From: an uncultured Eubacterium sp.
Lineage (GTDB): Bacteria > Bacillota > Clostridia > Lachnospirales > Lachnospiraceae
Assembly (NCBI GenBank): GCA_946611445.1
Contig: CAMODP010000030.1
Coordinates: 1-14,492 of the forward strand
DNA: 14,492 bases
Reading direction: 5' to 3'
The translations under genes and the position numbers were made by a program. Below the pieces are notes generated by a model. It saw nothing but the letters and a program-made list of their open reading frames with translations, searched no databases and was not told the DNA's origin. This document shows positions 2,143 to 14,028 of the stretch, one piece after another (the first letter of the stretch is position 1; every line of letters begins with the position of its first letter).

Positions 2143-2881
2143 CCCGGGCGGCGATCAGGATTCTCTCTGAATCCGGTGTCACAGGCAGGCCGGTGTAGGC
2201 ATCCTGCGCATCGATCCATGCCAGGCCGGCTTTCTCGATCAGCGTGCGAAGCTGGCCGGCGGACCAGGCTCTCTGTGTGTGGATTTCCTCCTGCCGCCGG
2301 TACAGCCCGTTGTCTCCTTCCGGCAGGAACAGCGTCAGGCAGTATTCGTTCAGATTGCTCTCCGCGTCATAGCTGTTCTCCCAGATAAAGCTGGCTTCCT
2401 CCCTGCTCTCCGCGATTACGCTGTCGCCGATGGCTTCATATTTGGCAGCCGTATTCACGTCGAAAAGGAACAGGCCGCCGGGATCCAGGTAATTGTTTAC
2501 CAGCTGAAATACCCGGAGCAGCTCCTGTTCATCCAGGATGTAATTCAGACTGTCGCAGACGCTGATGACTGCCCGGACAGTGCCGTACAGCTCGAATTCC
2601 CGCATATCCTGCAGCAGGTACAGAATGTCCGCGCCGGACCTGTCTTTTTTCTCCTGGGCGGCCGTCAGCATCTCCGGGGAGTTATCAATCCCGATCATGT
2701 CGTAGCCGGCACCTGACAGGAGCTCCGTCATAGTCCCCGTGCCGCAGCCCAGTTCACACAGCAGGCCGTCTTCTATTCCGTTTTTTCTGAGCATTCCGGT
2801 CAGATACCGGCACCACCCCTCATAGTCCACGTCTTCCATAAAAAGATCATAGACCGAGGCAAGACTGTCGTATGCCGCCAT
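2114..2881 (-). CDS. Class I SAM-dependent methyltransferase
   Basis: A soluble Rossmann-fold methyltransferase of 255 aa; the methyl acceptor cannot be read from the sequence. The N-terminus (YDSLASVYDLFM, 4-15) is typical of the small-molecule methyltransferase families Methyltransf_11/25. Motif I is ELGCGTGT (43-50), the SAM-binding glycine loop, and the acidic end of strand 2 is D66 in GIDNSPEML. GGGAG six bases before ATG 2881 supports the start. The last eight residues are encoded by the first unit of a tandem repeat that continues past the stop. It sits between the amidohydrolase and hslO, all codirectional. Nothing in the context fixes its substrate. Confidence 0.9.
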   Translation of the reverse strand: MAAYDSLASVYDLFMEDVDYEGWCRYLTGMLRKNGIEDGLLCELGCGTGTMTELLSGAGYDMIGIDNSPEMLTAAQEKKDRSGADILYLLQDMREFELYGTVRAVISVCDSLNYILDEQELLRVFQLVNNYLDPGGLFLFDVNTAAKYEAIGDSVIAESREEASFIWENSYDAESNLNEYCLTLFLPEGDNGLYRRQEEIHTQRAWSAGQLRTLIEKAGLAWIDAQDAYTGLPVTPDSERILIAAREIRKQSFIG

Positions 2882-2959
2882 ATTTATCTCCCGTCATAAC
2901 CATGTCTGAGGAACTCTGGGAAGGATCCTCACTTCTTTGTCCCCGTCCTGCAACCTATT

Positions 2960-3076
2960 TGCAGGCTTCACCGTCCCCGTCAGTACGCTGTCGAATTTTC
3001 GTGCAGCCCGCCCGCGCCTCCCTGCAGGCTTCACCATCTCCGTCAGTACGCTGTCGACTTTCCGAGCAGCCCGCCC
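2960..3076 (-). repeat. 63-bp direct duplication of the amidohydrolase 3' end
   Basis: The segments 2960-3013 and 3023-3076 align over 54 bp with 5 mismatches, at a period of 63 bp. The right copy contains the last codons and stop (3043-3045) of the amidohydrolase gene. The left copy is a diverged duplicate lying wholly in the spacer, including a second copy of the TACTGA stop region. Confidence 0.88.
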
Positions 3077-4608
3077 AGAATGGCAGGGCCGACGCTGCGC
3101 CGGCAGCTCTCATAGGGTTTCCCGCCCAGCAGGAGGCTCTCGACCCGCAGGTTTTTGATCTCCTCCTTCGGCGTGGTGTAAGGATCCGCGGAAAGGATCA
3201 CCATGTCCGCGACCTTTCCGGGTTCCAGCGAACCTCTTTCCATGTCATCAAAAGTCGTGTAATATCCGTTATACGTGCACATCCGCAGCGCATCCTGTAT
3301 GGAAACGGATTCCGCGCCGTTGTTCACGGCCCTGTCCATCCACACAATCGGATCCGGCGAGGTGCAGGGTGCGTCACTGCCGAAAGAGATCAGGATGCCC
3401 TTGTCGTGCAGCGTCTTCAACGGATTCAGCCGGGCCGCGCGCTCTTCACCCAGGATCGAGACCAGATACTCATCCGGCTCCTGCTTCCAGTTGATAAAGG
3501 CGCTCTGCATCGGCATCTGGATATGATACGCAGCGCAGATGCGCATGCCTTCCTCTGTGGGCAGGCAGTCATGGATGATACCGTGCCGGTGATCCTTTCG
3601 CGGATAGTCATCCAGCGCCGCCTTCAGGGCCCGGGTCGCCTGATCAAAGGCGGCGTCGCCAATGGCGTGCACTTCGATCTGCAGGCCGGCCCTGTTTGCC
3701 GCCTTGCAGAACTCTGTCACTTTTTCATCAGAATAATACAGCACGCCGCTGCCGCCTTCCGCATCAGCATACGGCTCGTTCATCGCCGCGTCATGCGAAC
3801 CGAAGCAGCCGTCCAGCGCGCACTCAAAGCATCCCCCGATCCGCGGCAGTTTCCGGCTCTGCGCGGTCCTGATGTCCATGGACTGCGGAAAGACCCGGAT
3901 CTGGAATCCGTTTTTCAGGGATTTCGCAAAGATCTTCTCAAAGGTAATGTCCAGGTTTCCGGCGAATCCGACACCGCTGACCGAATGAATCATGCCGATT
4001 CCCTTCGCGGCGTGGAAATCCACAGACGCCTGCATGTTGCGGAACAGGTCAATCAGAGAGAGGGAACCCGTGATGTGATCGGAGAAGCGGAAAAAAGCCT
4101 CCTGGTTCATCTCTCCGGTATCCGGATGATAGCCGCGCAGCCCCTTTACCTTGTCCGCCAGCTTCTCCAGAAGCTTTGAATTGGTGATGCAGGCATGCCC
4201 GTCATACTTGACGACCATGAGTTCCTTGTCAGGGCAGACAGCATCCAGCTCCTCGCGGGTTATAAGCCGCCGTTCCTTCACCGACCAGGGTGAAGCCCCG
4301 AAGGCAACAAGGGTCTTGCCGCGTGACCGCCGGGCAAAATCCCGGACCATATCCTTGATCTCTTCGTTGGATTCCGCGTCCATCACGTTCAGACCGGCCT
4401 GGAAGGTAGAAAAAGAAGCAAAATGCTGGTGCGTGTCGGCAAAAGCGGGAACCAGCGCGCGCCTGCCCAGCTCCGTGATCTGTGCGCCGGCATACTTTTC
4501 AGGCAGCGCATTTCCGGTCCAGACGATTCTGCCGCCTTCCTCCGCGAGATACGACACGACTCTGTTCTCAGGATCCACGGTCAGAATCGTTCCATGATAC
4601 AGCTTCAT
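3043..4608 (-). CDS. YtcJ-like metal-dependent amidohydrolase
   Basis: A 521-aa member of the amidohydrolase-3 (YtcJ/AepA-like) branch of the metal-dependent hydrolase superfamily, probably cytoplasmic since no signal peptide is seen. These enzymes hydrolyse C-N bonds; the substrate is unknown. The visible active-site set is complete: H60-Q-H62 in PAFADTHQHF, H314 in EVHAIGDAA, H346 in GIIHDC and D412 in SFGSDAP. The C-terminal LEPGKVADMVIL segment returns to the small beta-sandwich domain. The start is ATG 4608, six codons inside a longer frame, because GGAGG lies seven bases upstream. The last codons are part of a 63-bp duplication. It follows the Pr6Pr-like gene by about 110 bp. Family confident, reaction not. 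Confidence 0.9.
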   Translation of the reverse strand: MKLYHGTILTVDPENRVVSYLAEEGGRIVWTGNALPEKYAGAQITELGRRALVPAFADTHQHFASFSTFQAGLNVMDAESNEEIKDMVRDFARRSRGKTLVAFGASPWSVKERRLITREELDAVCPDKELMVVKYDGHACITNSKLLEKLADKVKGLRGYHPDTGEMNQEAFFRFSDHITGSLSLIDLFRNMQASVDFHAAKGIGMIHSVSGVGFAGNLDITFEKIFAKSLKNGFQIRVFPQSMDIRTAQSRKLPRIGGCFECALDGCFGSHDAAMNEPYADAEGGSGVLYYSDEKVTEFCKAANRAGLQIEVHAIGDAAFDQATRALKAALDDYPRKDHRHGIIHDCLPTEEGMRICAAYHIQMPMQSAFINWKQEPDEYLVSILGEERAARLNPLKTLHDKGILISFGSDAPCTSPDPIVWMDRAVNNGAESVSIQDALRMCTYNGYYTTFDDMERGSLEPGKVADMVILSADPYTTPKEEIKNLRVESLLLGGKPYESCRRSVGPAILGGLLGKSTAY

Positions 4609-8235: not shown

Positions 8236-8296
8236 TTTTTTCAGAATATTTACCGCGTGCTTCTTCTTGCCGGCATATCGAAAGGAGACAGCGAAA

Positions 8297-8323
8297 GGAG
8301 ACAGGGGTCAGACCCCTGTCCCC
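8297..8323. repeat. Dispersed palindrome, copy A
   Basis: GACAGGGGTC (8300-8309), a central A (8310), then GACCCCTGTC (8311-8320) form 10-bp perfect arms. The flanks GGA and CCC extend the resemblance to copies B and C. Its central base is A where B and C have T, so it lies inverted relative to copy B 35 bp away. This REP/BIME-like arrangement occurs in the operon/clpB spacer. Confidence 0.85.
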
Positions 8324-8352
8324 TCCGTCTTTAGCTGATTTTCGGCGCCACT

Positions 8353-8385
8353 AAAAAGGGAGACAGGGGTCTGACCCCTGTCTCC
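8353..8385 (-). terminator. Palindrome copy B acting as terminator of the importer operon
   Basis: Arms of 13 bp (8359-8371 and 8373-8385) flank a single central base. On the minus strand the second arm is followed by CTTTTTAG (8358-8351), so it has the form of an intrinsic terminator 66 bp after the last ATPase gene. The same sequence is a copy of the dispersed palindrome, so a mobile or amplified repeat seems to have been put to use as a terminator. Confidence 0.75.
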
Positions 8386-8389
8386 TCGT

Positions 8390-8451: not shown

Positions 8452-9243
8452 TCACAGCATCCAGAACCCGGCCGTCCGGAGTTCCCGCACGTATGCGTCG
8501 TCTGGCTGGTCGAGCACCGCGCCGCAGTCTCCGGTCTGCAGGATGCGGCCCTGGCGCATTACCATGACGCGGTCGGCCATTTTTCGGATGACGGCCAGGT
8601 CGTGGGTGATGAACAGAATCGTCAGGTTATACCTGCGGCGCATGTTCAGGAGCAGCTGCAGGATCTGGTTCTGGACGGCCACATCCAGCGCAGATACGAT
8701 CTCGTCGGCCACCAGGAGTTTCGGTTCCATGAGCAGGGTCCGGGCGATGGCGATTCTCTGGAGCTGGCCTCCCGAGAACTCTCCGGGCCGCTTGTCCAGG
8801 CTTGCCTCCGGCAGGCCGCACTCTTCACACATCTGCAGCACCCGTTTCATCCGGTCGGCGTCGCCTTCGCCGATTTTCCACGCGCGCAGCGGCTCCAAGA
8901 GCAGGTTCTTCACCTTCATGCGCGGGTCCAGGCAGCCAAAGGGATTCTGAAAAACCATCTGAATCTCGCGGCGCAGAGGATGATAGTCCCGGTCAGACAG
9001 ATGGCCGATCTCTTTTCCTCTGTAAATAATCTCTCCTGAAGAAGGATGCAGCAGGCCCAGCAGCATGCGCGCCATTGTAGACTTGCCGCAGCCGGACTCC
9101 CCGAGCAGCCCCAGGATCTCGCCTTCATACATGGTAAAAGACGCGTCATCCACGGCGGTAAAAAAGTCCCGTCCGCGCCGGCCGCCGGATGCCATCGCCG
9201 GAAACCGGCAGGTCACATGATCAAATTGCAGAATAGAGTTCAT
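8452..9243 (-). CDS. Nik/Opp-type ABC importer ATPase, second subunit (NikE/OppF position)
   Basis: A 263-aa cytoplasmic ATPase that powers the importer with the 9301-10113 ATPase. Walker A is GESGCGKST (48-56), the Q-loop Gln is 99, the signature FSGGQ is at 156-160, Walker B is LLVADEI with D180 and catalytic E181, and the H-loop His is 214. Position 182 is Ile where most relatives have Pro (DEP). The protein stops shortly after the core, without the roughly 60-residue oligopeptide-type C-terminal extension, so the size fits NikE better than OppF. AGGAG lies seven bases before ATG 9243. It is the last gene of the operon and is followed by a palindromic terminator. Confidence 0.92.
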   Translation of the reverse strand: MNSILQFDHVTCRFPAMASGGRRGRDFFTAVDDASFTMYEGEILGLLGESGCGKSTMARMLLGLLHPSSGEIIYRGKEIGHLSDRDYHPLRREIQMVFQNPFGCLDPRMKVKNLLLEPLRAWKIGEGDADRMKRVLQMCEECGLPEASLDKRPGEFSGGQLQRIAIARTLLMEPKLLVADEIVSALDVAVQNQILQLLLNMRRRYNLTILFITHDLAVIRKMADRVMVMRQGRILQTGDCGAVLDQPDDAYVRELRTAGFWML

Positions 9244-9300
9244 GGCTGTGCTCCTGAATAAAATGTTCCTTAATAAAATGATTAGGCCGCCAAAAGCAGC

Positions 9301-10113
9301 TTACCTCTGCAGACTTTTCGTCCCCTCCAGCAGTGCCTTTGTATAGGCCGCCTGCGGATCTGCAAAGACCTCGTCTGTCCTGCCCTGTTCGATGATGCGT
9401 CCGTCCTTCATGACGGTCACCGTGCCGCAGATTGCCTGCACAATTCCCAGGTTGTGCGTGATATACAGCATGGACAGGCCTCTTTCCCGGCAGAGCTCCA
9501 CGATAAACTCCACGATCCGTCTCTGGTTGATCGTGTCCAGAGACGTCGTAGGCTCATCCGCGATCAGGAGCTTCGCCGGCGACTCCAGCGCCATGGCGAT
9601 CGCGATCCTCTGCCGCATCCCGCCGGAGAGCTGGTGCGGATACTTCCGCAGCACCTCTTCACCGCCGTGAATGCCGAAGGTGTCCAGCTGCTGCAGGATC
9701 CGCCCGCGGATCTCGTCCCTGTTCCCGCCGGGCCGGTGCAGCAGCGCCGTCTCCATCCACTGCGCGTCGATCCGCTCAAAAGGATTCAGCGCATTGATGG
9801 AATCCTGCAGGATCAGACAGGTGTGCGAAGCAGAAAACCGCTGCCGCTCCTTCCATGGCAGCTTCAGCAGATCCGTACGGCTGCCGTCCTCCTCCCGGAA
9901 GAGGATCTCCCCGCGGATCTGCACCGTTCTGCGCGGCAGCAGAGACGTCAGACAGTACATGGTCATACTCTTGCCCGCGCCGGACTCCCCGGCAATGCCC
10001 CGCAGCTCCCCTTCCTCTACGGAAAAGGAGACATCCCGCAGAATCGGGATCGCGCGCCGGTCTTTTACAATATCCAGGTTGAGGTTCCTGACCTCCAGCA
10101 CCGGTTCAGTCAT
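9301..10113 (-). CDS. Nik/Opp-type ABC importer ATPase, first subunit (NikD/OppD position)
   Basis: A 270-aa ATPase, partner of the 8452-9243 protein. Walker A GESGAGKS is at 42-49, the Q-loop Gln at 103 (LILQDSINALNPF is the family pattern), the signature LSGGM at 162-166, Walker B LLIADEP with D186 and E187, and the H-loop His at 220 in ITHNLG. All catalytic residues are present. OppD/DppD proteins are usually about 320-340 aa; this one is NikD-sized and lacks the C-terminal iron-sulfur-type extension. Its ATG overlaps the stop of the upstream permease gene by eight bases (10106-10113), which implies translational coupling. A 57-bp gap containing CATTTTATT twice separates it from the last gene. 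Confidence 0.93.
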   Translation of the reverse strand: MTEPVLEVRNLNLDIVKDRRAIPILRDVSFSVEEGELRGIAGESGAGKSMTMYCLTSLLPRRTVQIRGEILFREEDGSRTDLLKLPWKERQRFSASHTCLILQDSINALNPFERIDAQWMETALLHRPGGNRDEIRGRILQQLDTFGIHGGEEVLRKYPHQLSGGMRQRIAIAMALESPAKLLIADEPTTSLDTINQRRIVEFIVELCRERGLSMLYITHNLGIVQAICGTVTVMKDGRIIEQGRTDEVFADPQAAYTKALLEGTKSLQR

Positions 10114-10903
10114 AGATCGTCACCTTCTCTCCCTGCAGGCTGCCGCTGTCAAACATTACATGGAAGAAAACGGTCAGCAGCGTGATAGCCGCCGCCGGAT
10201 AAATGACCAGCGTCGGATGGCTCATCATGTAGATCCTGTACTGGTACAGCAATGTCCCCCAGTCCGGCTTCGTGATGTCGGTGCCCAGCCCGATAAAAGC
10301 CAGCCCGGAATACTGGATCACGACATTTGCCGCCTTGTTTCCCAGGAAAACCAGCAGCTGCCCGCAGATATTCGGCAGCACGTGGAATACAAGGATCGGC
10401 AGCTTGCCCAGGCCGATGACCTTCTCCGCGTCGATGAATTCCTGCTTTTTCAGCACGTAGGCCAGATTGTAGGCCTGGTTTACATACTCGCCCATATTGC
10501 CGATGCCAAAGACAACGCCGGCCATCAGCGGGCTGAAGCCGAACAGGGCCGAGAAAACCATCGCCATGATAAACGACGGAATGATCAGCGTGTAATCGGC
10601 AATGAACTGAATCACATTGCGCACCAGGCCGCCCCAGAATGCCGCGATCAGGCCGAGGGCCGTGCCGCAGAAAAATGAGATCGCAGCCGAGAGGAATACC
10701 ACCTCCATGGTCCGCAGGCCGCCTTCCACCAGCAGGGAATACACATCCCTGCCCAGGTTGTCGGTACCAAGCCAGTGCGCCGCGGATGATGGCGCATACA
10801 TATTCAGCACATCGGTCGACATGATATTCTGCCGGGGCGAAAAGGCCAGGAACAACATGAACGCCGCCAGCGCCCCCAGGCAGATCCACTGTTTTTTCTT
10901 CAT
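10106..10903 (-). CDS. Nik/Opp-type ABC importer permease, NikC/OppC position
   Basis: A 265-aa inner-membrane permease that forms half of the transport channel. After one N-terminal membrane segment (about 6-22) comes HWLGTDNLGRDVYSLL (43-58), the hallmark of the OppC/DppC/NikC family. The BPD_transp_1 domain follows with about five membrane segments. The cytoplasmic EAA-type loop that contacts the ATPase is EFIDAEKVIGLGKLPILVFH. Its ATG overlaps the stop of the OppB-type gene by four bases (10900-10903), and its own stop overlaps the next ATPase start, so the two permeases and first ATPase are translationally coupled. The NikC-like length (E. coli NikC is 277 aa) supports the metal-type reading without proving it. 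Confidence 0.93.
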   Translation of the reverse strand: MKKKQWICLGALAAFMLFLAFSPRQNIMSTDVLNMYAPSSAAHWLGTDNLGRDVYSLLVEGGLRTMEVVFLSAAISFFCGTALGLIAAFWGGLVRNVIQFIADYTLIIPSFIMAMVFSALFGFSPLMAGVVFGIGNMGEYVNQAYNLAYVLKKQEFIDAEKVIGLGKLPILVFHVLPNICGQLLVFLGNKAANVVIQYSGLAFIGLGTDITKPDWGTLLYQYRIYMMSHPTLVIYPAAAITLLTVFFHVMFDSGSLQGEKVTIYD

Positions 10904-11823
10904 GCGCGCCTCCTGACATCAATCGCGTACAGCACCAGGTTCAGGATCAGGTGGACGACAAACATCCAGATCACCACAACCAGCAGATATGTCTGCAGAA
11001 CCGTGTAGTCACTGGATTTCATGCTGTCAACCAGAAAATAGCTGATGCCCGGTATCGAAAAGGCAAACTCCAGCACGGTGCTGCCGCCAAACACCCAGGC
11101 AAAACTGGAGATCACCGCAGCTATGAGCGTGCACAGAACCGGCCGGGAGGCATGGCGGAACAGTACGTAGCCGCGGTCAAAACCCCGCGAGATGGAAAAA
11201 CGCACATAGCTCTTCGTCATTTCTTCGCGGAAGGCATTGCGCACAACTCTGGAGAGGCCGCCCAGCTGATAGAGCGCCGTGATCAGGATCGCCGTCACGA
11301 CGGCGTGCACCGGGTTTCCGGTGAAAAACTTCACGGCTTTCAGTTTCACGCTGAGGAAATAGATGATGAAGACACTGGTGATAAAGCTCGGGATAGACTG
11401 CGAAAAGACAGCCAGCGCGCTGCTCAGCCTGTCGCAGAAGCCGCCCGCGTGCAGCGCCGCGCGATATCCCAGAAAAAAGGCTGCCGCCGCGGACAGCAGG
11501 ATGCCGCACAGGCCGATGCTCACCGAATACGGCAGCTTCTGGAAGAACGTATCCCGGATGCTGACATGGCTGATCAGGGACAGCCCCCAGTCACCGCGGA
11601 AAAAGTTCCGCATCCACGCCAGATACTGTACCGGAAGCGGCTGGTCCAGGCCCATCAGCTTCGTCACCCTTTCGATATTTTCCGCTGTGTGCGGCAGGTT
11701 AAAAGAAGTGAGCCACTGCTCTACGGGTGTCGTCGGCATCAGCCGCACCACGCCGAAGATCATAATAGAAGCAGTCAGGAAAATCAGCAGCCATTTTCCA
11801 AGAAAAGAGAGGACATTTTTCAT
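10900..11823 (-). CDS. Nik/Opp-type ABC importer permease, NikB/OppB position
   Basis: A 307-aa permease, partner of the 10106-10903 protein. Residues about 8-28 form the first membrane helix. The family segment MGLDQPLPVQYLAWMRNFF and RGDWGLS precedes the BPD_transp_1 domain, and the EAA-type loop reads SISRGFDRGYVLFRHASRP. About six membrane helices are expected. I chose ATG 11823 over one 15 codons upstream (11868) because the protein then starts MKNVLSFLGKWLL like its relatives, with GGAG nine bases before it. It lies 178 bp downstream of the binding-protein gene, and that gap holds stable hairpins which may lower permease expression relative to the binding protein. Confidence 0.92.
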   Translation of the reverse strand: MKNVLSFLGKWLLIFLTASIMIFGVVRLMPTTPVEQWLTSFNLPHTAENIERVTKLMGLDQPLPVQYLAWMRNFFRGDWGLSLISHVSIRDTFFQKLPYSVSIGLCGILLSAAAAFFLGYRAALHAGGFCDRLSSALAVFSQSIPSFITSVFIIYFLSVKLKAVKFFTGNPVHAVVTAILITALYQLGGLSRVVRNAFREEMTKSYVRFSISRGFDRGYVLFRHASRPVLCTLIAAVISSFAWVFGGSTVLEFAFSIPGISYFLVDSMKSSDYTVLQTYLLVVVIWMFVVHLILNLVLYAIDVRRRA

Positions 11824-11918
11824 ATGTAAATACTCCAAAGGAGCGGCCCGGAAACATCCGACCTGCATGCTGTCACTCCTGTCTCCGACGCCGCCCCTGA
11901 AATGCTGCTATGTTTACG

Positions 11919-11954
11919 CCCGGCAGCCGTTCAGCTGTGCTGCATGCTGCCGGG
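11919..11954 (-). promoter_or_regulatory. Intercistronic hairpin between binding protein and permeases
   Basis: CCCGGCAGC (11919-11927) pairs perfectly with GCTGCCGGG (11946-11954), an 18-nt loop between. A second hairpin with arms TGTGC/GCACA lies just upstream in the transcript, near 11969-11994. No T-run follows either, so they more likely stabilise the binding-protein mRNA end than terminate fully. Confidence 0.5.
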
Positions 11955-12001
11955 ATCAGTCTTTTTTGCCTGTGCCCGCAAAGCGCGGCACACAGATGGT
12001 G

Positions 12002-13501
12002 TTACTCCAGTCCCAGTTCCGGATTCACGACATAGTAGTCGCCGCAGTACGGAACATAATCAGCCAGCTTCTCCGACACGGCGATGTGCCATTCCGGATC
12101 GATCAGGTAGATCATAGCGCCTTCCTCGCCTGCGATCTGCTGCACCTGCTTCGCCAGGTCATCGCGCTCCGCGCCGACCTCCAGCTCGCCCATCTGGTCA
12201 AGCAGAGCGTCAACTTCCTCGTTGCTGTAGCCGTTGTGATTCTTGGAGCCGTCCGTGCGGAAGAACATGTTCAGGGCATAGGCCGGCTCGCCGGTCGGAG
12301 CCGTGTGCTGTGCGTAGAAAGCGATATCAAACTCGCCGTTTCCCAGTACTTCATCGATATTGTCCACGATGCTGGTCGTCACCTTGATGCCGGCAGCGTC
12401 CAGTGCGGAAGCGGTCAGCTGCATCAGCACCGGCAGGTCCGGGCGGTAGGAGTAGGTCAGCAGCTGCAGCTCCAGCGCCTCGCCGTCCTTGTCCAGATAG
12501 CCGTCGCCGTCGGAATCGGCATAACCTGCCTCCTCCAGCAGAGCCTTCGCGTCATCGGTGTCCGTCTTCGCGTCGAACTCGCCCGCGAAGCTGTAGTAGG
12601 TGGCAAAGAGACCCGTCGCCTTGCGGCCGCCGCGCAGAACGGTCAGCATGGCTTCGCGGTCGATCAGCTCACTGATGGCCTTCACGACATTCGGGTCATC
12701 CAGCGGAGCCTTCGCCAGATTCGGAATGGCAAAATACTGATAGCCCGCGTCAAAATTTTTCACGGTCAGGCCCTCGCCCTCCAGGGCTTCCGCGATCTCA
12801 TTCGTCACGGTAAAGGCCATGTCGATCTCGCCAGCTTCAAAAGCCTGCTGCATGGCTGTCGTGTCCTTGAAGCAAAGCAGCTGCACATCCGGTCTGTCGG
12901 CAGCGCGGTCATCATAATACTCATTCGGTACCAGGTTCACCGATACGCCGGGATCAAGGGAATCCAATACATACGGGCCGGTGAAGACATAGCCTTCTTC
13001 CTCGCTGCCCTTGAATACGATGTTGGCCCACTCGCAGAGAATAGACTTCATGACAGTGGTTTTTCTCTCTGTCGTCAGGGTCACGGTGCCGTCCTCTGCC
13101 GCCTCAAAAGTGATCTTGCCTGCGGAATCGGAAGCATTCGGGTTCATCTCCATAACCGTGTTCATGCTCTCGGCCACTGCCGCGGCGTCACAGTCCGAGC
13201 CGTCGGAGAACTTCACGCCGTCTTTCAGGGTGAGCTTCCAGGTGAGGTCATCCACCTGCTCCAGATCCTCTGCGATATGGGAGACCAGCTCGCCCTCCGC
13301 GTTCTGCATGAAGATCGTCTCGCTGATGCCGTCCGCCGTCAGAGACCACGGATCGCCGCCGTAGGTGGGATCGACCTTGTCAATCACATTCGTCACGCCG
13401 ATAATCACAGGCGCATCCGCCTCCTCAGCCGCAGCCGTCACAGGCAGGATCCCGGTCAGACACAGGGCACCCGCCAGCAGTACAGAAAGTCTTTTTTTCA
13501 T
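12002..13501 (-). CDS. Family-5 extracellular solute-binding protein of the B12-controlled importer
   Basis: A 499-aa SBP_bac_5 protein, the family of peptide, nickel and opine binding proteins; it captures the substrate outside the membrane. Residues 1-25 form a signal peptide (MKKR, a hydrophobic core, then AAA before EEADAP). The only early Cys (C14) is preceded by GAL, which is not a lipobox, so a signal peptidase I site after A25 is more likely. LTWKLTLKDGVKFSDGS is the classic family motif, and GYADSDGDGYLDKDG is the usual loop before the C-terminal lobe. ATG 13501 is preferred over an ATG ten codons upstream because AAGGAG lies six bases before it. First gene of the operon under a cobalamin riboswitch. 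Substrate inferred only: cobalt, a chelate, or a corrinoid. Confidence 0.93.
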   Translation of the reverse strand: MKKRLSVLLAGALCLTGILPVTAAAEEADAPVIIGVTNVIDKVDPTYGGDPWSLTADGISETIFMQNAEGELVSHIAEDLEQVDDLTWKLTLKDGVKFSDGSDCDAAAVAESMNTVMEMNPNASDSAGKITFEAAEDGTVTLTTERKTTVMKSILCEWANIVFKGSEEEGYVFTGPYVLDSLDPGVSVNLVPNEYYDDRAADRPDVQLLCFKDTTAMQQAFEAGEIDMAFTVTNEIAEALEGEGLTVKNFDAGYQYFAIPNLAKAPLDDPNVVKAISELIDREAMLTVLRGGRKATGLFATYYSFAGEFDAKTDTDDAKALLEEAGYADSDGDGYLDKDGEALELQLLTYSYRPDLPVLMQLTASALDAAGIKVTTSIVDNIDEVLGNGEFDIAFYAQHTAPTGEPAYALNMFFRTDGSKNHNGYSNEEVDALLDQMGELEVGAERDDLAKQVQQIAGEEGAMIYLIDPEWHIAVSEKLADYVPYCGDYYVVNPELGLE

Positions 13502-13579
13502 CCTTCGCTCCTTTTCTGATAATGAAAACATTCAAGTATCTTCTATCTGCAGCGGTCATGCATACCGTTACATTCACGC

Positions 13580-13616
13580 AAAAAGAAAAAGCATACCCGG
13601 CCGAAACCGAATATGC
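13580..13616 (-). terminator. Riboswitch-controlled intrinsic terminator before the binding-protein gene
   Basis: On the minus strand, 13616-13607 pairs with 13600-13591 over 10 bp (two G-T wobbles) around a 6-nt loop, followed by TTTTTCTTTTTG. This is the best terminator in the window and lies in the leader, about 80 bp before the binding-protein ATG, so it must be conditional. Confidence 0.88.
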
Positions 13617-13721
13617 TCCCTGTACTTCATGATTCACCATGCGGCAGCTGCTGCTATTCTGCATGCACAACGGCGGAGAATCTGTCTGTGATGAAAAAAG
13701 GAACATACCTCTCCCGGTTCC
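13610..13721 (-). promoter_or_regulatory. Candidate antiterminator and anti-antiterminator of the cobalamin leader
   Basis: GGTATGTTCC (minus strand, 13709-13700) can pair with GGAGCATATT (13619-13610) over 10 bp with three G-T wobbles. That uses seven bases of the terminator's first arm (13616-13610), so the two folds exclude each other. A second hairpin, GGAAC (13721-13717) with GTTCC (13704-13700), would take the antiterminator strand and allow termination; it is followed by T6. The pairings are visible; their order of action is inferred. Confidence 0.55.
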
Positions 13722-13740
13722 GGGGATCCGATACATCATC

Positions 13741-13918
13741 CTCACAGGAAGGTCTTCTGACTCGGCGTCACCGCGTCCGGCACCTTCTCGGCTCTGAGAG
13801 GTATACCCTCCCCGCCAATGGCAATCCGCCGTCCGCTCAGCCTCACAGCAACGGTCTTGTCGGAGAATCACACTCCGTTCCCTATTCTCCCGCCCTTTCA
13901 GGGGCAGGCGCCTGTGAG
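13741..13918 (-). ncRNA. Cobalamin (B12) riboswitch aptamer
   Basis: Binds adenosylcobalamin or a related corrinoid and normally lowers expression of the downstream genes. The closing helix CTCACAGG/CCTGTGAG (13918-13911 with 13748-13741) is perfect. The 3' B12 box reads GAGTCAGAAGACCTTCC (13763-13747), against the usual AGTCAGGAGACCTGCC. The conserved core includes AGGGAA, GTGTGATTCTCC and GACCGTTGCTGTGAGG, near 13887-13840, matching the GGTG-AAT-CC and CGC-ACTGT blocks with small deviations. It lies 240 nt before the binding-protein ATG with a terminator and antiterminator in between. It is the key evidence about what the importer carries. Confidence 0.92.
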
Positions 13919-13945
13919 TACCCTAATCTACGTTAGATTGTTGTA

Positions 13946-13974
13946 ATTATAGCACGCTGCGATTTTCACTGCAA
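13946..13974 (-). promoter_or_regulatory. Sigma-A promoter of the riboswitch-importer operon
   Basis: On the minus strand, -35 TTGCAG (13969-13974), a 17-bp spacer and a consensus -10 TATAAT (13946-13951). The start should be near 13939. A 6-bp hairpin AATCTA-ACG-TAGATT (13938-13924) would form at the very 5' end of the RNA. Confidence 0.85.
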
Positions 13975-13999: not shown

Positions 14000-14028
14000 G
14001 GGAGACAGGGGTCTGACCCCTGTCTCCC
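14000..14028. repeat. Dispersed palindrome, copy C, downstream of rubrerythrin
   Basis: Perfect 14-bp arms (14000-14013 and 14015-14028) around a central T, the longest of the three copies, with a partial repeat CTGTCTCC right after it. It lies between the rubrerythrin stop and the importer promoter. It could end rubrerythrin transcription, but no T-run follows on the minus strand. Confidence 0.88.

Follow-up and report, generated by a model that had tools for sequence, protein, structure and literature searches.

A cobalamin riboswitch leads a Nik/Opp-type ABC importer of a separate clade in an uncultured Eubacterium: a candidate system for cobalt uptake

We analyzed a stretch of 14,492 nucleotides (the window) that makes up contig CAMODP010000030.1 of an uncultured Eubacterium sp. 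(Lachnospiraceae; assembly GCA_946611445.1). On its minus strand, from 13974 to 8452, a cobalamin (vitamin B12) riboswitch leader is followed by five codirectional genes of an ATP-binding cassette (ABC) importer. As a preliminary description of this DNA had proposed, these encode a binding protein, two permeases and two ATPases. The first product is a family 5 substrate-binding protein (SBP; 12002-13501, 499 amino acids (aa), signal peptide without lipobox; PF00496, 211 bits). It is followed by an Opp2B/NikB-like permease (10900-11823; PF00528; Opp2B 199 bits, cut-off 350) and an Opp2C/NikC-like permease (10106-10903; PF00528; Opp2C 159 bits, cut-off 300). The ATPases (both PF00005) are CntF/CntD/NikD-like (9301-10113, 270 aa; CntF 216.5 bits, cut-off 385; NikD 209.9 bits, cut-off 318.7) and DppF/OppF/NikE-like (8452-9243, 263 aa; PRK11308 239.6 bits, cut-off 408; NikE 233.3 bits, cut-off 332.55). 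The frame of the first permease is open from 11868, but a start near 11823 is more likely because the corresponding protein is 304-319 aa long in many relatives.

The operon thus has the layout of PepT/NikABCDE-like importers, in which a family 5 binding protein is encoded together with a pair of BPD_transp_1 permeases and a pair of ABC ATPases. The best-scoring models for all five proteins are those of peptide/nickel importers, and all five proteins remain under every curated cut-off shown; none reaches the NikA-E equivalog cut-offs. Model scans found neither CbiM nor CbiN among the five operon proteins, and no BtuF model among their eight NCBIfam matches, the binding protein belonging to PF00496 only.

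The aptamer matches RF00174 over the whole model (13730-13930, minus strand; 89.3 bits against a gathering threshold of 31.5, E-value 2.2e-21, model positions 1-189 of 189) and contains the B12 box GCCATTGG, in agreement with the preliminary description; the motif GCCATTG on its own occurs in the window at chance-level frequency. The same description had proposed a promoter and a leader terminator. For the latter, a terminator-like hairpin of 16 pairs followed by a T-rich tail was found at 13621-13586, and it is the probable expression platform of the riboswitch. An alternative leader fold is predicted 3' of the aptamer, its 5' part pairing with the terminator (z -0.86, not significant). The putative promoter (TTGCAG-17-TATAAT, 13974-13946) was read by eye, with a perfect -10 and a 3/6 match at -35, and was not listed by a promoter scan.

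In the tree, the window binding protein falls into a clade of its own (clade A), set apart by a branch with 100/100 support. A profile built from 22 homologs retrieved 28 named loci in addition to that of the host, and binding-protein scores left a clean gap between clade members (at least 608 bits) and the other proteins scored (at most 288 bits). Permeases and ATPases follow the binding-protein gene at 25 of the 28 loci, and the other three are cut by contig ends. The ATPase is a single open reading frame (ORF) of 554-636 aa in L017, L018, L031 and L036, and split ORFs occur in L018 and L037. A simple lipobox pattern was present at 20 of the 28 other loci and in none of the window protein, its 11 nearest homologs (P0001-P0011) and the two binding proteins of host contig C3 discussed below.

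A cobalamin riboswitch lies directly ahead of the binding-protein gene at 20 of the 28 loci, 17 of them at Rfam thresholds (15 RF00174, 2 RF01689). The other three rest on weaker evidence, namely scores of 43.1 (L042), 27.6 (L032) and 23.1 bits (L016) with R1, a riboswitch model of our own, together with sub-threshold RF01482 matches for L032 and L016 and an aptamer core visible by eye in L042. R1 favours clade A because 12 of its 19 training rows are clade A riboswitches; it recovered all 11 Rfam-known sites left out of training. No riboswitch was found at L019, L022, L029, L033, L034, L035, L038 and L039, of which the first seven had been scanned under permissive Rfam settings as well and L039 at gathering thresholds and with R1 only. 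The loci are not all independent, since L017/L018 and L025/L026 are nearly identical pairs. Neither of the two outcomes that would have spoken against the preliminary description was seen: the covariance model matches strongly, and the binding protein sits in a B12-linked clade, outside the characterised peptide clades.

The riboswitch goes with the clade, as a control with sister operons indicates. The control covered 23 sisters, namely 20 operons for which as much as 4.98 kb of upstream DNA was included and three farther relatives of the C3 type (L116-L118); when these were searched with R1, a riboswitch match (E < 0.01) was found in L143 only. It lies about 640 bases ahead of the first permease and is a candidate leader of that operon. 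A farther riboswitch could escape detection in L132 and L134, which have more genes upstream, and in L138, which starts at a contig end. L114, L119 and two host operons on contig C3 were left out as members of a second group linked to B12; if L114 and L119 are included among the sisters, 3/25 have a riboswitch. An earlier control (0/18) was dropped as too weak, because permeases come first in most sister operons and only about 1.5 kb upstream was covered; L053, negative there, does have a riboswitch ahead of its operon (seen in L114), and its label in the tree is wrong on that account.

The second group consists of C3-type operons, with a riboswitch in both host copies and in genomes G015 and G004. 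A fifth close relative (G007) is cut by a contig end, and no riboswitch was found at the three more distant operons. Judged from the tree, Nik-type importers probably came under B12 control on more than one occasion.

The host genome (1.95 Mb, 67% complete; the window is its contig C30) has 8 RF00174 matches, of which three besides that of the window lead Nik/Opp-type genes. Two are on C3 (L012 83-11098), which carries two tandem complete operons, each with its own cobalamin riboswitch and the order permease, permease, binding protein, ATPases. On C138 (L010), the riboswitch precedes Nik-type permeases and ATPases, and the contig ends before any binding protein; a methyltransferase-like gene was seen by eye upstream. 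On C40, a riboswitch leads a protein with a putative F420-0 binding protein as best model and BtuF at 31 bits, followed by a permease and an ATPase (by eye). C141 ends shortly after its match. On C4 (14540-14747, minus strand; L014 10541-10748), a cobalamin riboswitch of 60 bits directly precedes an unusual target, an operon in which NuoD-like and HypA genes stand together with NuoC- and Mrp-like genes recognised by eye. On C224 (L011 95-1156, minus strand), a riboswitch leads a 353-aa protein that matches no NCBIfam model and, by eye, has a signal peptide.

The most economical account of these data is that adenosylcobalamin (AdoCbl) represses the import of cobalt from which the cell makes corrinoids de novo, and we consider it probable, from comparative data, that the importer takes up cobalt, probably in chelated form, for B12 synthesis. 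With AdoCbl plentiful, the bound aptamer would let the leader terminator form and switch the operon off; with AdoCbl scarce, the importer would be made. The binding protein would then capture Co(II), most likely bound to a small chelating molecule, and the imported cobalt would feed de novo corrinoid synthesis. The closest fold to the window protein is Staphylococcus aureus NikA (SaNikA). His399 is invariant and specific to the clade, with glycine at the aligned position of SaNikA. His416 coordinates the metal in Escherichia coli NikA (PDB 3qim), and His399 may do the same, judged from a low-identity alignment.

Carriers of the importer mostly make the corrin ring. The corrin-ring gene CbiC was found in 26 of 29 distinct carrier genomes, against 226 of 397 genomes of the family, and the host itself carries cbiC. 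Carriers were counted as 29 and not 30 because L029 and locus L068 of G235 share the same SBP score, length and span; in addition, G114 is a copy of G004 (identical match coordinates). For two of the three carriers without CbiC (L017, L025), an almost identical locus occurs in another genome that is CbiC-positive. At L031 (G114 = G004, the genus of the host), an opposite-strand riboswitch (4016-4208) leads a CbiK-like gene about 4 kb from the importer (sirohydrochlorin cobaltochelatase, 191.5 bits, cut-off 400), with a homocysteine methyltransferase-like gene between the two. In the product of this CbiK-like gene (2407-3819, minus strand), the match starts at residue 182 of 470, and an export signal may lie in the N-terminal part.

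Several observations weigh against cobalt uptake. The carriers span several lineages while the CbiC background is one family, and many genomes are incomplete. The preliminary description had also asked whether related genomes with the importer lack CbiMNQO, the cobalt importer of the energy-coupling factor (ECF) type, and this holds only in part. CbiN, used as marker, was indeed absent from 24 of 30 genomes searched, but the family shows the same rate (317 of 397); its presence in 6/30 against 80/397 means that carriage of the importer alone is not tied to lacking CbiN. In the host itself, an ECF system that includes a CbiM-like protein of 352 aa could carry cobalt; this protein is under all CbiM cut-offs, and no riboswitch was found in the 8-kb stretch around it. 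A difference appears when carriers are split by riboswitch: CbiN was found in 2 of 21 with a riboswitch-led importer versus 4 of 8 without (Fisher 0.033), or 1/18 versus 5/11 with Rfam-threshold calls only (p 0.018). This inverse association is suggestive only, because the tree gives just three to four independent supported contrasts, too few for a phylogenetic test. Both CbiN and a riboswitch-led importer are absent from four carriers (the genomes of L019, L029, L033 and L038). The cbiMN genes themselves are riboswitch-led in G099, G105 and G117 and doubtfully so in G120 (27 bits), and no riboswitch was listed near or before them in G118 and G122.

Two alternative treatments of these data were abandoned. 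CbiM (PF01891) as cobalt ECF marker matched 15 of 29 carriers, some with ORFs of 350-400 aa that we take to be NikM-type, and was replaced by CbiN; length is no clean mark of CbiM either, as CbiM and CbiN share one 373-aa frame in G117. A comparison of 2/18 with 80/226 for CbiN was discarded since it presumed CbiC in all CbiN genomes, which fails at least for G033.

B12 repression alone cannot separate cobalt from corrinoid, and it would equally suit the main rival explanation, in which a DppA/NikA-type binding protein takes the place of BtuF in the uptake of cobalamin, cobinamide or other cobamides. Aromatic residues specific to the clade (W158 in 28 of 29 rows; Y254, Y256, Y302 and W471 in all 29) speak for such a ligand. 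So do two TonB-dependent receptors after the importer at L033 (12905-17424), which fit corrinoid uptake too because their best model, though far under its cut-off, is a B12 receptor. Corrinoid uptake is nevertheless unlikely in our view: carriers that mostly make the corrin ring are the opposite of what salvage would predict, the host owns a separate riboswitch-led BtuF-like operon, and the nearest solved fold binds metal chelates. The comparative data favour cobalt over corrinoid, short of proof. The substrate class named in the preliminary description (cobalt, free or chelated, or a B12 precursor, as opposed to peptides) is well supported.

A nickel importer under B12 control, serving for example nickel/cobalt balance or the supply of a B12-regulated hydrogenase, appears improbable. 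It draws on the nickel models that are closest to the binding protein and permeases, on the top PDB sequence matches, which are likewise nickel proteins, and on the riboswitch ahead of the host NuoD/HypA operon. Scores, however, are far under the nickel equivalog cut-offs, HypA, the nickel-related gene that was looked for, was found in just 14 of 29 carriers, 22 of the 23 sister operons had no riboswitch found, and all 29 clade rows have tyrosine at a position where 40 of 41 sister proteins have arginine. The nickel site of E. coli NikA comprises Arg97, Arg137, Tyr402 and His416 (available part of PMC2667541); in the window protein, Arg97 corresponds to Asn122 and Tyr402 to Thr403, in an alignment of about 18% identity with two of the four columns in gaps. 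A possible riboswitch-HypA link in G110 and G111 was dropped, as in both genomes the RNA comes after a gene that by eye is homocysteine methyltransferase-like, and in G110 it is oriented against hypA. A cobalamin riboswitch stands right behind a homocysteine methyltransferase-like gene at L120 (6145-6336, minus strand) and L121 (4472-4659, plus strand), each in a carrier. Import of a peptide or another B12-sparing nutrient under B12 shortage, such as a lower-ligand precursor, is very improbable, even though the superfamily contains Dpp and Opp importers and B12 riboswitches also control B12-independent alternatives (PMC545781, in its available part).

Cobalt uptake by such a system has been proposed before. 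In the available part of Zhang et al. (2009; PMC2667541), NikABCDE members with a B12 riboswitch in Clostridium tetani and Desulfitobacterium hafniense are named as the exception to nickel specificity, and Table 2 places two NikABCDE of Clostridia in the cobalt column. Like the window system, these are NikABCDE-type importers led by a B12 riboswitch. Their proteins were accepted as NikA partly by nickel-site residues, and they are compared here with the window clade by description only; neither species occurs in a locus title among the 28 clade loci. Because that study counted two B12-riboswitch NikABCDE as cobalt importers, the window importer is a new clade of an already predicted kind. What is added here is the separate clade, its 28 named loci beyond the host and a control that ties the riboswitch to the clade.

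Other known systems also differ from that of the window. For S. aureus NikA/Opp5A (PDB 4xkr, 3rqt), the window protein scores 253.8 bits against a cut-off of 600, and the two systems differ by His399 and by the riboswitch. CbtJKL of Sinorhizobium meliloti is, like the window system, an ABC importer with a binding protein under an AdoCbl riboswitch; unlike it, the binding protein is BtuF-like. CbtJKL was first taken as a B12 importer and then reported to import cobalt (PMC7689651, in its available part), so cobalt and corrinoid importers are easily confused. CbiMNQO imports cobalt, and is riboswitch-led in the three carriers named above, but is of the ECF type without a family 5 binding protein. 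The BtuFCD type, seen at host C40, has a BtuF-type binding protein, unlike the window system.

Two other features of the window were recorded. Three near-identical 29-bp palindromes flank the operon (8296-8324, 8358-8386 and 14000-14028; 5 strand matches against a mean of 0 in shuffles) and resemble repetitive extragenic palindromic elements. A Clostridiales-1 RNA (RF01699, 118.9 bits) lies at 5524-5357 on the minus strand, directly downstream of a clpB-like gene (named by eye).

Beyond the window, we tentatively suggest that the clade might be a dedicated importer of cobalt chelates, cobaltophore-like and with the clade-specific histidine as ligand, which would replace CbiMNQO in many gut B12 producers. 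Nik-type importers would then have come under B12 control at least twice, and a single genome would run three to four such importers, which might each serve another cobalt chelate. Since nickel models give the best scores for the binding protein and the permeases, a route that supplies cobalt to B12 synthesis may be going unnoticed in Clostridia of the rumen and gut. If confirmed, cobalt uptake by the importer would help to explain the cobalt supply of B12 producers without CbiMNQO and would provide a rule for assigning cobalt uptake, namely clade plus riboswitch.
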